Part shown: in pieces, positions 47,909 through 53,068 of the stretch
Numbering within the stretch: position 1 is the stretch's first letter
How the letters are laid out: each line of letters begins with the position of its first letter
Source of the DNA: Olivibacter sitiensis DSM 17696
GTDB lineage: Bacteria; Bacteroidota; Bacteroidia; Sphingobacteriales; Sphingobacteriaceae
Assembly: GCF_000427965.1 (NCBI RefSeq)
Contig: NZ_ATZA01000016.1
Location: 181 to 64,180, forward strand
Length of the DNA stretch: 64,000 bases
Reading direction: 5' to 3'
The notes under the pieces: model-generated
Told to the model about the DNA's origin: nothing
The model's input: the letters and a program-made list of their open reading frames with translations, nothing else
Databases searched by the model: none
Made by a program: the position numbers and the translations under genes

Positions 47909-48349
47909 CTATTGGTCCACGGAAGACGTCAAGTTCTCTTCTTTTTTCGTGTTTCCAAAGACCCAATATTTTTGCAAGGTATAGTTAAAACCCAGGGAAA
48001 CGGCGATGTCAATCAGGATTCTGCTGATCTTATAGTCCAAATGTAAATTCTCGGTGAGCAGATAGGTAAAACTAGACTTCAGGGCAATGCTGCCAAGAAC
48101 GACTAGGCAAAATTTCACCAATTGCCCTCCCACTGGCAGGTTACCTTTCTTAAAAGTCCAAAAACGGTTGATGGAAAAGTTGACCACTGCGCCTATCACA
48201 CCACTTATGGCTATGGATATAGTATAGTGGATAGAAAGCACTTCCGTGCAAAAAATCATGATGGCATAGTCAACTATACCGCCGGCAAATGCAGAAAACT
48301 GTGCTTTGAAGAAAACGAGAATTGCCTTGCTAGACAGCACTTTTTTCAT
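47909..48349 (-). CDS. GtrA-family membrane protein
   Basis: A 146-residue protein with four membrane segments (VFFKAQFSAFAGGIVDYAIMIF, ISIAISGVIGAVVNFSIN, FCLVVLGSIALKSSF, ILIDIAVSLGFNYTLQKYW), the GtrA pattern that moves or flips polyprenyl-linked sugars or assists glycosylation. ATG 48349 is used; it overlaps the preceding phosphatidyltransferase gene by 20 bases, suggesting coupling. Confidence 0.86.
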   Translation of the reverse strand: MKKVLSSKAILVFFKAQFSAFAGGIVDYAIMIFCTEVLSIHYTISIAISGVIGAVVNFSINRFWTFKKGNLPVGGQLVKFCLVVLGSIALKSSFTYLLTENLHLDYKISRILIDIAVSLGFNYTLQKYWVFGNTKKEENLTSSVDQ

Positions 48350-49073
48350 TACGCTCTTTTTCGCGTTTGGCTGATTTCTCTTCCCTATCGCGCTCATCGC
48401 CCAGCTTTAGCAGACGCATCGTATCACTGATATTGACTATGAACAAGACGACAACGATAAGTATAGAAAAATAATTGAGTGATTTGGGAACAACGACTTC
48501 CATGACAATAATAAAAGCTACGATAAAGCGTACTTCGGTGGGGCCTAATGCTCCAGCGTCTATTGTATATTTGTCGGTTATCTTATAGCGAAGCTGTGAA
48601 ATAATCATAGCCCAGCCATAAAGTGCAACAAAGAAATAAGCAAGCAGTTCGTGCCATGAAGTGAGGTAGATAAGAAAACCGAATCCCATCATTACTGTGT
48701 TGATCCAGTCCATGATAATATCGAGCGAAAAGCCATACCACTTTCTGGGAATATTGCGATAATAAGCAATCCTCCCATCTAAAGAGTCCCCAAACCAATT
48801 GATCGCCAGCCCGAGTATACCCAGCAACAAGAATGATCTATCGAAAAGAGCTCCTAAATAAAAGCCTAGCAGCACTACTAAGCCTCCAAAACTTCCAATA
48901 CCCGTCAAAACATTTGGCGTAATAAAAGCAGGCATTCTTGCTACTAAATAGGAGATGGCACTTTGCTCTGCCTTCCTTAAGACATTCGTTCGCTTACGGT
49001 CTTTGAAAATTCGCGATTTTGTTTCCAATCGCCCACTCCGTTCCAACCCCTCATTTTCATTCTTCAAACTCAT
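48330..49073 (-). CDS. CDP-alcohol phosphatidyltransferase
   Basis: A 247-residue membrane enzyme. The CDP-alcohol signature is present: GDSLDGRIAYYRNIPRKWYG, then SLDIIMDW, with the four Asp. About six membrane helices follow. It would join a CDP-activated lipid head to an alcohol. The setting beside GtrA and downstream of a sphingolipid-type set suggests head-group synthesis for a phospho(sphingo)lipid; the substrate is not determinable here. Confidence 0.88.
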   Translation of the reverse strand: MSLKNENEGLERSGRLETKSRIFKDRKRTNVLRKAEQSAISYLVARMPAFITPNVLTGIGSFGGLVVLLGFYLGALFDRSFLLLGILGLAINWFGDSLDGRIAYYRNIPRKWYGFSLDIIMDWINTVMMGFGFLIYLTSWHELLAYFFVALYGWAMIISQLRYKITDKYTIDAGALGPTEVRFIVAFIIVMEVVVPKSLNYFSILIVVVLFIVNISDTMRLLKLGDERDREEKSAKREKERNEKSAV

Positions 49074-49208
49074 TACAACTGTATTAATTGCACCATATTA
49101 TACCTATGTGCATGGTGCATATGCAAAAGCAACAATCTGAGCGCCGCTAAGTTTCATAAAAAACGCGCTGCGCACTCTCTTTTGCAAAAAAATATAAAAA
49201 AATATACG

Positions 49209-49841
49209 TTAAATCTTCTTGTTCTTTTTAGGAAAATCAGAGCCGAAAATTTTATCCCAAAATGGCGAACTGACACCGTATCCTTTATCGGCATCTGCAT
49301 AGTGATGCAGCATATGGTGTTGCTTGATTTTTTTCATCAAACCACTCTTAAAGTTATAGTGGTGCATCGCATAATGACCTATATCATAAAACAGATAACC
49401 GATCATGAAGGCAGGGAAAAATGCAGATACGTAGGCCTCACCCAAAAGCCATTTAAACAGAAAGTAAAACAATAGTGCCAACGGAATACTGACTACAGGC
49501 GGCATTACCAAGCGCAATCTATCTTGCGGATAATCATGATGAACTCCATGAAATATAAAATGAATACGCTCCATGAACTTCCCCTTGGGTGTAAAATGAA
49601 ATACAAACCGATGGAGCACGTACTCTGTCAGAGACCATATTACCAAGCCCAAAGCAAAATATCCTACAAAATGCAAAACATCTAATTTGTATTTATTAAA
49701 TGCCTGAAAAACGAAATAAACTATTACGGGCAGATAAATAATGATAGGTACCGAAAAGTGAACCTTTGTTAGGGGCTCCAGTAAATCACTCTTAAACATA
49801 CGAGTAGATTCTTCGGAATTTGAAACATAATTCTTTGCCAT
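49209..49841 (-). CDS. Fatty acid hydroxylase / sterol desaturase-family protein
   Basis: A 210-residue di-iron membrane enzyme. Histidine boxes: HRFVFHF, HFIFHGVHHDYP, HYAMHHYNF and HHMLHHY; four membrane segments surround them. It is close to sphingolipid fatty acid 2-hydroxylases (FA2H/Scs7 type, without the cytochrome b5 domain). In this cluster it probably hydroxylates the acyl chain or base of sphingolipids. Confidence 0.87.
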   Translation of the reverse strand: MAKNYVSNSEESTRMFKSDLLEPLTKVHFSVPIIIYLPVIVYFVFQAFNKYKLDVLHFVGYFALGLVIWSLTEYVLHRFVFHFTPKGKFMERIHFIFHGVHHDYPQDRLRLVMPPVVSIPLALLFYFLFKWLLGEAYVSAFFPAFMIGYLFYDIGHYAMHHYNFKSGLMKKIKQHHMLHHYADADKGYGVSSPFWDKIFGSDFPKKNKKI

Positions 49842-50154
49842 ATCTTGTTATAATTTACTTTTATCCAATCACAGAATCAAGTTGCCAAAAGGCGCCTGAT
49901 CTGATTTACATATACAAAATTCAACAAACTATTTGTATTTTCTGAAATAATTGACCTATAAAAACAGTCTTCATTTTCTTTTCAGAAATCAGACTACAAA
50001 AATATGACTATCAACCTTGAATGGTCAAAAAATCCACTCATTTGATTGTCATAAAAGTTCAATATGAAAAGAGGCACCGCAAATTCGGACGTTTCCTTCG
50101 CCCATGCTTAAAAAAGCAACCATAAAGAAAGGAAGAATTTATAAGCCAGTGCTA
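49842..50154. other. Intergenic region upstream of the hydroxylase gene
   Basis: About 310 AT-rich bases between the GNAT-like gene and the hydroxylase gene, both on the minus strand. It probably carries a promoter for the hydroxylase, but I find no convincing TAnnTTTG element and no gene. Confidence 0.4.
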
Positions 50155-51309: not shown

Positions 51310-51317
51310 CGATAATA

Positions 51318-52523
51318 CTATGCTATTTTCTCAATCGCACTTGGAACGATTTTCCTATATACCTTGGTGAGCTTGTCTATTGCTTCTTCTATCTGCTCAA
51401 ACGTATGTGTAGCCATCAGCGAGAAACGAATCAATGAGTCTTGGGAAGCAACGGCAGGAGAAACAACGGGGTTCACAAACACGCCATTTTCTTGCAATTC
51501 TTTCGTAATCAAGAATGTGGCATCGTTATCTCGAATATATACAGGTAAAATAGGACTTTCGGTTTTGCCAAGATCGAATCCATTTTCAAGTAACATTTCT
51601 TTCGCATATTGTGTATTTCTCCACAAGTTCTCAATATACTCAGGTTCTGTTTGGATGATTTCCAAGGCTGCCAAAACACTTGCTGCGGCACCAGGGGTCA
51701 TGGAAGCGCTGAACATGAGCGAGCGGGCACGGTGCTTCAAAAATTCGATGGTTTCATGATCGCTGGCAATGAACCCGCCGAGTGATGCCAAGGACTTGCT
51801 GAAAGTTCCCATAATCAATTCCACATCATTGGTAAGTCCAAAATGCGAAGCAGTTCCAGCACCTTTCTCACCTATGACACCTAAGCCGTGTGCATCATCC
51901 ACCATGATAGCTGCGTCAAAACCTTTGGCAACCTCCACTAGTTCAGGCAACTTCACAAAATCACCTTCCATGCTGAACACACCGTCTACGGCTATAAGTT
52001 TCACCGCATCCTCTGGAAGCTGACTCAACTTACGTCGCAAGTCTTCCATATTGTTGTGTTTGAACTTGACCACCTTGGAAAAAGAGAGGCGGCTGCCATC
52101 TATAATGGAGGCATGATTGCTTTCATCCAAGATGATATAGTCATTTCGCCCAGTTAAGCAAGATAAAGCTCCTAGGTTTGCCTGAAAACCAGTACTAAAA
52201 AGAACAGCACTCTCTTTGCCTACATACTTCGCCAATTTGGCCTCAAGTTCCTCATGAATATCCAAAGTTCCGTTCAAGAAGCGCGAACCAGCACATCCAG
52301 TACCGTATTTTTTCACCGCCTGACAAGAAGCCTCGATAATCTTGGGATGGTTTGTCAACCCTAGATAGGAATTGGAACCGAACATAAGAACAGACTTCCC
52401 ATCTATAGTCACTACCGTGTCCTGACCAGACTCAATAGGTCGAAAATACGGATACAACCCCTTTGCCTTTATGGCCTCAGCATCTTTAAATTCGGCTATT
52501 CTTTTCTTAAAATTTGCACTCAT
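51318..52523 (-). CDS. spt: Serine palmitoyltransferase
   Basis: A 401-residue PLP enzyme of the alpha-oxoamine synthase family that joins serine and palmitoyl-CoA to 3-ketosphinganine. Lys243 in [12 protein letters not shown] binds PLP, His137 stacks in ESNHASII, and the DDAH motif is at about 209-212. The sequence [30 protein letters not shown] and NPVVSPAV fits the soluble Sphingobacterium enzyme closely. A MarR-type regulator gene lies 80 bases upstream on the same strand. Confidence 0.93.
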
Positions 52524-52603
52524 TTTTCTATATTTACAAACCTTCGCAGGCTTTATTGTAATTGTTTTTCAATAATACCAACTGTTAATTATTCACACAT
52601 ATA

Positions 52604-53068
52604 TTAAATAATATGTACATTTTGCAGATTGTCACCTATGTTTTTCAAAAACTGGATGAAACGATCTCTATCTACCGCCCTCATATTGGCAAATATTATC
52701 TTGTCCAAATTGACCATTTTGTCCCTAATGTTCTCCACCAGCGATTTACCTAATATAGTTAATGAAACGCAATTCTTGCGTTTGTCTTCTTTATTTGGTT
52801 CCACAACAACTAATCCATCTTTTTCCAAACTGGTAATAGTACGCAATACAGAAGATTTATCTCTTCCCACTTCGTCAGCGATTTCTTGTTGGGTCATTCC
52901 AAATTCCGGGATAGATAATAATACTGGAAGCTGTTCTACACGAATATCTATGCCTTGTGAAGAAAGATATTGATTTGTTTTCTGTGCCAATAGCTTATTC
53001 AAGTTATTGACATGAAACAAAGTAGGCTCCTCTCTAACATTTATTTGCGTTGTTTGCATAAAATACAC
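52604..53068 (-). CDS. MarR-family regulator of the sphingolipid cluster
   Basis: A 154-residue winged-helix regulator: LPVLLSIPEFGMTQQEIADEVG, recognition helix KSSVLRTITSLEKDGLVV, and wing EPNKEDKRKNCVSLT. It is encoded just before spt and probably controls it. ATG 53068 or 53059 are equally plausible. Ligand unknown. Confidence 0.88.
   Translation of the reverse strand: MYFMQTTQINVREEPTLFHVNNLNKLLAQKTNQYLSSQGIDIRVEQLPVLLSIPEFGMTQQEIADEVGRDKSSVLRTITSLEKDGLVVVEPNKEDKRKNCVSLTILGKSLVENIRDKMVNLDKIIFANMRAVDRDRFIQFLKNIGDNLQNVHII

Follow-up and report, generated by a model that had tools for sequence, protein, structure and literature searches.

A cluster of six genes in Olivibacter sitiensis DSM 17696, lying in a 64,000-nucleotide stretch of contig NZ_ATZA01000016.1 (positions 181 to 64,180; hereafter the window), can with fairly high confidence be read from its sequence as a locus for the synthesis and modification of ceramide. 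It encodes a serine palmitoyltransferase (SPT; gene spt), a GNAT-type acyltransferase that is a candidate bacterial ceramide synthase (bCerS), an FA2H-like hydroxylase, perhaps a head-group pair (CdpA-GtrA) and a MarR-type regulator that would control the locus. Sequence, gene context and a structure model establish the families of the parts, the pairing of spt with bcerS, the co-occurrence of fa2h with spt, and the absence from this genome of a close CerR and of an inositol synthase. The GNAT-type bCerS is an established family and was thus no new idea of the first-pass annotation of this DNA; the locus is a known kind of pathway in a new assortment of genes, and not a new kind of system. In the host genome (5.05 Mb in 110 contigs) the genes are found, in the order of reading, as follows:

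marR, 52604..53068, minus strand: MarR-family winged-helix regulator, 154 amino acids (aa) as listed; PF12802, E = 3e-10
spt, 51318..52523, minus strand: serine palmitoyltransferase, 401 aa; NF047600
bcerS candidate, 50155..51309, minus strand: tandem-GNAT acyltransferase, 384 aa as listed, TTG start
fa2h, 49209..49841, minus strand: predicted Scs7/FA2H-like membrane fatty acid 2-hydroxylase, 210 aa; PF04116, E = 3.2e-20
cdpA, 48330..49073, minus strand: cytidine diphosphate (CDP)-alcohol phosphotransferase, 247 aa; PF01066, E = 1e-5
gtrA, 47909..48397, minus strand: GtrA/DPMS-type membrane protein; PF04138, E = 1.2e-20

The six genes are all present on one strand with marR at the front, as the first-pass annotation had stated, and the matches to PF04116, PF01066, PF04138 and MarR_2 are all above the Pfam cut-offs. 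The range it gave for the cluster (48330-53068) holds marR to cdpA and leaves most of gtrA, which extends to 47909, outside. The gaps are short between marR and spt (80 bp) and between spt and the GNAT gene (8 bp), and marR, spt and the GNAT gene are likely to form one transcript. Those between the GNAT gene and fa2h (313 bp) and between fa2h and cdpA (135 bp) are long, so that a single six-gene operon cannot be taken as established, and the genes downstream of the GNAT gene may have their own transcription start. The open reading frame (ORF) of gtrA, as listed, overlaps the end of cdpA.

In the proposed pathway Spt would join serine and a fatty acyl-CoA to give 3-ketosphinganine, and the GNAT protein would add a second fatty acid through an amide bond. 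The 3-keto group would be reduced, before or after N-acylation, by a reductase encoded elsewhere, and the FA2H-like enzyme would hydroxylate the amide-linked acyl chain at C-2. A phospho-alcohol head group may next be added by CdpA, with GtrA helping to present the product across the membrane. MarR, the first gene transcribed, probably controls its own transcript and thereby spt and bcerS. We infer the enzyme activities, the order of the steps, the substrate of CdpA and the role of MarR from the sequence.

Gene distributions were scored in a family sample of 61 genomes and a phylum sample of 198, with thresholds of 253 bits for the GNAT protein, 250 bits for FA2H and CdpA and 258 bits for CerR; SPT was taken as listed or at 620 bits. 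The thresholds were chosen after the gaps in the scores had been seen and related genomes are not independent, so Fisher values on co-occurrence are descriptive. Phylum counts rest on the matches listed, and genomes with weaker matches (e.g. G034 and G195 for the GNAT protein) are scored as lacking the gene.

The spt product belongs to the SPT family, scoring 731 bits against NF047600 (cut-off 640), the same NCBI family as the Bacteroides SPT (BT_0870). It is 72% identical to the solved SPT structure 8guh, which we take to be from Sphingobacterium multivorum. The SPTs of three other genomes (G002, G245 and G230) are nearest to 8guh, at 83-86% identity, which probably places the host genus next to Sphingobacterium in the family. 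An SPT orthologue (>620 bits) is present in 19 of the 61 family genomes, leaving 42 without spt.

The GNAT protein is very probably the bCerS, and the proposal of the first-pass annotation that it is a candidate ceramide synthase is upheld by a Caulobacter relative in the spt region, by its co-occurrence with spt and by the adjacency of the two genes. One full-length relative was found in each of four Caulobacter genomes (E = 7.2e-60 to 2.2e-57; identity about 32-34%). In two of the stretches fetched (L067 and L068) spt comes right after a CerR-like epimerase gene and is followed by the relative at a distance of approximately 7 kb, which is the arrangement given for CC_1164, CC_1162 and CC_1154 in the available text of PMC9386255 and PMC11324152; a third (L069) ends short of the spt position. 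The same two sources describe CC_1154 as required for dihydroceramide in Caulobacter. The host thus resembles Caulobacter in having Spt and a GNAT-type bCerS in one region, but differs in that spt and bcerS are adjacent, that there is no CerR-like gene in the cluster and that beside spt no gene for an acyl carrier protein (ACP) or for an acyl-ACP synthetase was seen.

A search back with the Caulobacter protein of L067 gave a match in 59 of the 61 family genomes. The 19 best places (179.7-225 bits) fall in exactly the 19 spt genomes and all others score 150.9 bits or less; this top tier, which was defined after the gap in scores had been observed, is therefore occupied in 19/19 spt genomes compared with 0/42 of the others. 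In the host genome the window protein scores 195 bits (E = 2.2e-57) with this query, above the paralogue on contig 16 (114 bits), so its full-length likeness to the Caulobacter GNAT of the spt region exceeds that of any paralogue in the genome. The GNAT gene directly follows spt in 18 of the 19 spt-bearing family genomes, host included, a pairing beyond chance; in the exception (G242) it is on another contig. Among the matches listed for the phylum sample, host excluded, 145 genomes have a GNAT protein of at least 253 bits, 147 have SPT and 143 have both, with spt directly upstream of the GNAT gene on the same strand in 77 of the 143, a count from which the lower-scoring of two SPT entries of G155 is likewise left out. 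In seven of 20 loci the reading frames of the pair share 1 or 4 nt; one of the seven (L058) has a very divergent GNAT. The true start of the host protein is probably a few codons further in than the TTG listed, because its relatives in the family are 372-375 aa long.

Two observations weigh against the assignment. The Caulobacter sequences come from other species or strains of the genus and not from C. crescentus itself, so that gene order is the ground for equating them with CC_1154, and among the matches listed spt and the GNAT gene are not adjacent in 66 of the 143 phylum genomes that have both.

The fa2h product very probably hydroxylates ceramide in the manner of the yeast enzyme. When it was compared with the PDB at E up to 0.1, only two yeast Scs7 sequences were found (4zr1, E = 1.2e-34; the other, 2.8e-34), and the match spans all of the histidine clusters. 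Twelve histidines are invariant in all 10 aligned relatives. By counting along the Scs7 alignment, 10 of these fall on the metal-binding positions of Scs7 (244, 249, 268, 271, 272, 326, 330, 345, 348 and 349). The protein thus combines a PF04116 domain with the Scs7 histidine clusters and shares its family and histidine set with the yeast and animal Scs7/FA2H enzymes and with the FA2H-like enzymes of myxobacteria. It differs from Scs7/FA2H in that its gene is beside spt and in that its 210 aa leave no room for an additional cytochrome b5 domain. A review (PMC10002949), in its available text, names the myxobacteria as bacterial carriers of functional FA2H-like enzymes and Sphingomonas as a source of P450 enzymes, while the hydroxylase reported in the available text on Caulobacter is of the DesA type (CC_0202; PMC11324152). 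A match to fa2h is present in 20 of the 61 family genomes. The close copies (>250 bits) occur in 13, all of which bear spt (13/19 compared with 0/42), and in 10 of these genomes the distance to spt is at most 13 kb; the other seven genomes, six of them without spt, have distant copies (133-150 bits). The 2-hydroxy ceramide product that had been suggested for the cluster is supported by this Scs7/FA2H relative and its co-inheritance with spt.

The pathway as read is incomplete, as it lacks CerR. A CerR-like NAD-epimerase gene directly follows spt-GNAT in 11 of the 19 spt family genomes and is next to spt in a twelfth (G242); at 258 bits or more it is found in these 12 and in none of the 42 genomes without spt. 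No close CerR was found in the host genome, in the cluster or elsewhere, with a relative's CerR-like protein as query (best E = 1.8e-4), and none in the three congeners (best E = 1.5e-10). For comparison, the same query gives 74 and 84 bits (E of 5e-17 or lower) even with epimerases as distant as those of Caulobacter. Both absences count against a complete pathway of the spt-bCerS-CerR kind, and that in the host had been overlooked in the first-pass annotation. Three further spt genomes (G213, G228 and G243) have no CerR at 258 bits or more. The lack of a close CerR suggests that the host genus reduces the keto group by another enzyme, it seems, for which a Tsc10-like short-chain dehydrogenase would be the natural candidate; the Bacteroides protein BT_0972 (KDSR) is an example of this type in the available text of PMC9278070.

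The host genome has no match to PF07994, the family of myo-inositol phosphate synthase (MIPS), and in this respect does not fit the BT_1522-1526 inositol-ceramide pathway. MIPS is present in nine of the 61 family genomes, all with spt and eight with the gene near spt; among the relatives' loci with a bcerS-type GNAT it occurs in eight of 17 (L042, L045, L047, L049, L050, L052, L054 and L057). In six of the eight (all except L042 and L057) the locus further includes a BT1523-cluster CDP-alcohol transferase and a BT1522-cluster PAP2 gene, so that relatives of the host carry BT1523-like and BT1522-like genes as in the Bacteroides inositol-ceramide operon. NF052561 is matched above its cut-off by the two BT1523-cluster members scanned, and the one BT1522-cluster member scanned scores 328 bits against NF052609, under the cut-off of 480. 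In B. thetaiotaomicron the sphingolipid genes are scattered, according to the available text of PMC9278070 and PMC9246714. An inositol ceramide as the product of the host locus is rejected, as there is no MIPS and CdpA is only 26% identical to a relative's BT1523-like protein. In the spt-GNAT loci of L042 and L056 the place of the BT1523- and BT1522-cluster genes is taken by a nucleotidyltransferase gene and a different CDP-alcohol transferase gene, an arrangement that resembles the alternative inositol-lipid cluster of Bacteroides and Prevotella in the available text of PMC9246714.

For CdpA, addition of a head group to ceramide is a reasonable guess. Of the head-group claim in the first-pass annotation, the presence of the CDP-alcohol transferase and GtrA families in the cluster stands, and the tie to ceramide is loosened by the occurrence of the pair in genomes without spt. 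CdpA matches occur in 21 of the 61 family genomes; 17 are above 250 bits and the weak remainder are other CDP-alcohol transferases. The gtrA gene directly follows cdpA in all 17 loci. All 17 CdpA proteins retain the four aspartates and both glycines of the CDP-alcohol phosphotransferase motif, DxxDGxxAR...GxxxDxxxD as quoted in the available text of PMC9246714. The match to NF040950 (E = 6.7e-8) is far under the cut-off of that model. In a comparison of the profile of the 17 proteins with the PDB at E up to 1, CEPT1 (E = 8e-8) and CHPT1 (4e-7 and 7e-5) were the only matches, and CdpA shares its fold and the D..DG / G...D...D core with these enzymes and with phosphatidylinositol-phosphate (PIP) synthase.

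The chief alternative, to which we give only slightly less than an even chance, is that CdpA-GtrA belongs to a glycerophospholipid pathway and lies beside ceramide genes by accident. The closest structures to the CdpA model are those of PIP synthases and AF2299 (Z 17-19; PIP synthases 18.8), with CHPT1/CEPT1 further off (Z 12-15), and cdpA (>250 bits) is present in five of the 42 family genomes without spt and in three genomes of the same class without a strong SPT match, a distribution that leaves a role in ceramide synthesis unproven. Against the guess, too, all 17 proteins differ from CEPT1, CHPT1 and PIP synthase in lacking the canonical AR of DGxxAR, having A[YF] instead with the arginine two residues on (DGR[IL]A[YF][YF]R). 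The opposing evidence is one of linkage: cdpA (>250 bits) is present in 12 of the 19 spt genomes, compared with the five of 42 others, and seven of the 12 have it inside the spt locus; the pair follows a CerR-like gene in the spt cluster in all three genomes of the genus with SPT nearest 8guh, and follows fa2h in all four genomes of the host genus. A general role for CdpA across the phylum, as its ceramide-phosphoethanolamine synthase, is rejected, since only seven of the 198 phylum genomes, among them the three same-class genomes, have cdpA; among the matches listed for the 147 other SPT-bearing phylum genomes it was found in none but G002 and, at a weak 108.6 bits, G188.

The marR product is a MarR winged-helix protein (PF12802, 40.5 bits; cut-off 27), the likely ATG of which is 9 nt inside the listed GTG ORF. 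Local control of spt is likely, and it is plausible that MarR responds to a ligand and sets sphingolipid output, as the first-pass annotation had proposed. When the neighbour of spt was scored from ORFs of at least 90 aa, a regulator gene was the next upstream in seven of 20 loci: in the host and the three congeners this is the MarR gene, in G091 a MarR gene whose product is 32% identical, in G190 a TetR gene and in G033 a divergent Rrf2 gene. The recurrence of regulator genes beside spt favours local control and says nothing of a ligand. The alternative that MarR regulates something other than spt, its position being accidental, is rather unlikely. The orthologue (>180 bits, 57-58% identical) is confined to the four sampled members of the host genus, the next best score in the 61 family genomes being 51 bits, and in the other 13 of the 20 loci the gene next to spt, scanned directly or through a cluster member, matches no regulator family; that in L045 matches no family at all. 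Set against this, marR is kept 46-80 bp before spt in all four members of the genus, and MarR, TetR and divergent Rrf2 genes adjoin spt in the three outgroup genomes. No MarR operator was recognised: in an alignment of the upstream regions of the four genomes, judged by eye, only a short conserved block was seen ahead of marR. In the genomes with SPT nearest 8guh, smpB and not a regulator is next to spt, and the control of spt there must differ. In Sphingobacterium detergens, spt is up 3.98-fold under polymyxin B in R2A and down in LB and BHI (PMC12724326), and the available text of that study does not mention MarR.

A target other than C-2 of the ceramide acyl chain, whether the sphingoid base or free or glycerolipid fatty acids, is improbable for the hydroxylase. 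PF04116 also includes base hydroxylases and sterol oxidases, and three of the 13 close fa2h copies are away from spt. The established in vitro FA2H assay, in the available text of PMC10002949, uses free fatty acids. Hydroxylation of ceramide is nevertheless favoured by Scs7 being the sole match in the PDB, with every histidine cluster aligned, and by the way in which fa2h tracks spt.

For the GNAT protein the Pfam match is weak (23.0 bits; cut-off 20.7), no NCBIfam model matches even at E = 10, and a sequence search of the PDB gave no match with the protein alone and weak GNAT matches only with a profile. An AlphaFold2 model (pLDDT, predicted local distance difference test, 89.7) shows a tandem GNAT from end to end. 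Its best fold matches are tandem acetyltransferases, of amino sugars and the like (7q3a: Z 25.5, root-mean-square deviation (rmsd) 3.2, 305 residues aligned); the whole length can also be aligned with N-myristoyltransferases, enzymes that pass a long acyl chain carried by CoA on to an amine (Z 16-17, rmsd 4.6-6.2, 280-298 aligned). A shared fold by itself shows no function. A further point against the bCerS reading is that 40 of the 42 family genomes without spt also hold a GNAT of the same superfamily, so the fold alone is no proof of ceramide synthesis. Twelve such paralogues, 27-32% identical, split off with 100/100 support in an unrooted tree, which shows only three distinct groups and was rejected as proof of orthology with the Caulobacter protein. 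That the GNAT protein acylates another amine (an amino lipid or peptide, like other long tandem-GNATs), the true ceramide synthase being elsewhere in the genome, would accord with these retained paralogues, the acetyltransferase folds and the weak Pfam match, and is very unlikely given the separate grouping of the paralogues, the restriction of the top score tier to spt genomes, the overlaps with spt and the position of the Caulobacter relative where CC_1154, required for ceramide, is expected. In G033 (L058:7368-8489) an spt above the cut-off and a CerR-like gene flank the very divergent GNAT (branch length 3.14), which is possibly a replaced or fast-evolving ceramide synthase.

The results connect a bacterial FA2H relative, which follows spt across a family, with the ceramide core already known from bacteria, and cdpA-gtrA is a concrete gene pair for the question of how head groups are attached to ceramide. 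According to the available text of PMC11334938, sphingolipid-producing Bacteroidota do not have the three core genes near one another. This is qualified by the phylum sample, where among the matches listed the gene of the bCerS relative adjoins spt in 77 of 143 genomes, and by spt, bcerS and cerR standing together in 11 of 19 spt family genomes. More speculatively, and with the balance of probability against it, the ceramide pathway of the family could consist of exchangeable cassettes behind an spt-bcerS core: an FA2H of eukaryotic type, a head-group set (the inositol set or CdpA-GtrA) and a lineage-specific lipid-sensing regulator before spt. CdpA-GtrA would then be an unrecognised ceramide head-group transferase, perhaps the one that the family lacks so far for ceramide phosphoethanolamine. 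For the host family little surfaced in print about its spt clusters or its fatty acid hydroxylases, which is a thin basis for calling the locus unpublished.

In the three congeners the gene order is marR-spt-GNAT-DUF5686-fa2h-cdpA-gtrA-DUF4833. The window has no DUF5686 and DUF4833 genes at these positions, the rest of the genome not having been searched for them, and no remnant of DUF5686 was found between the GNAT gene and fa2h. Relatives repeatedly have a DUF5686 gene of the outer-membrane type and a DUF4833 gene in their sphingolipid clusters (L039:9466-12042, L039:6864-7454 and L050:13773-15083), and in L050 DUF4833 is fused to a BT1523-like CDP-alcohol transferase. In the three congeners an AraC-type gene, absent from the window (53069-53436), lies between marR and a lipoprotein-like gene. 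The latter (208 aa; window 53437-54063; no Pfam match) is kept beside the cluster in all four sampled members of the genus.

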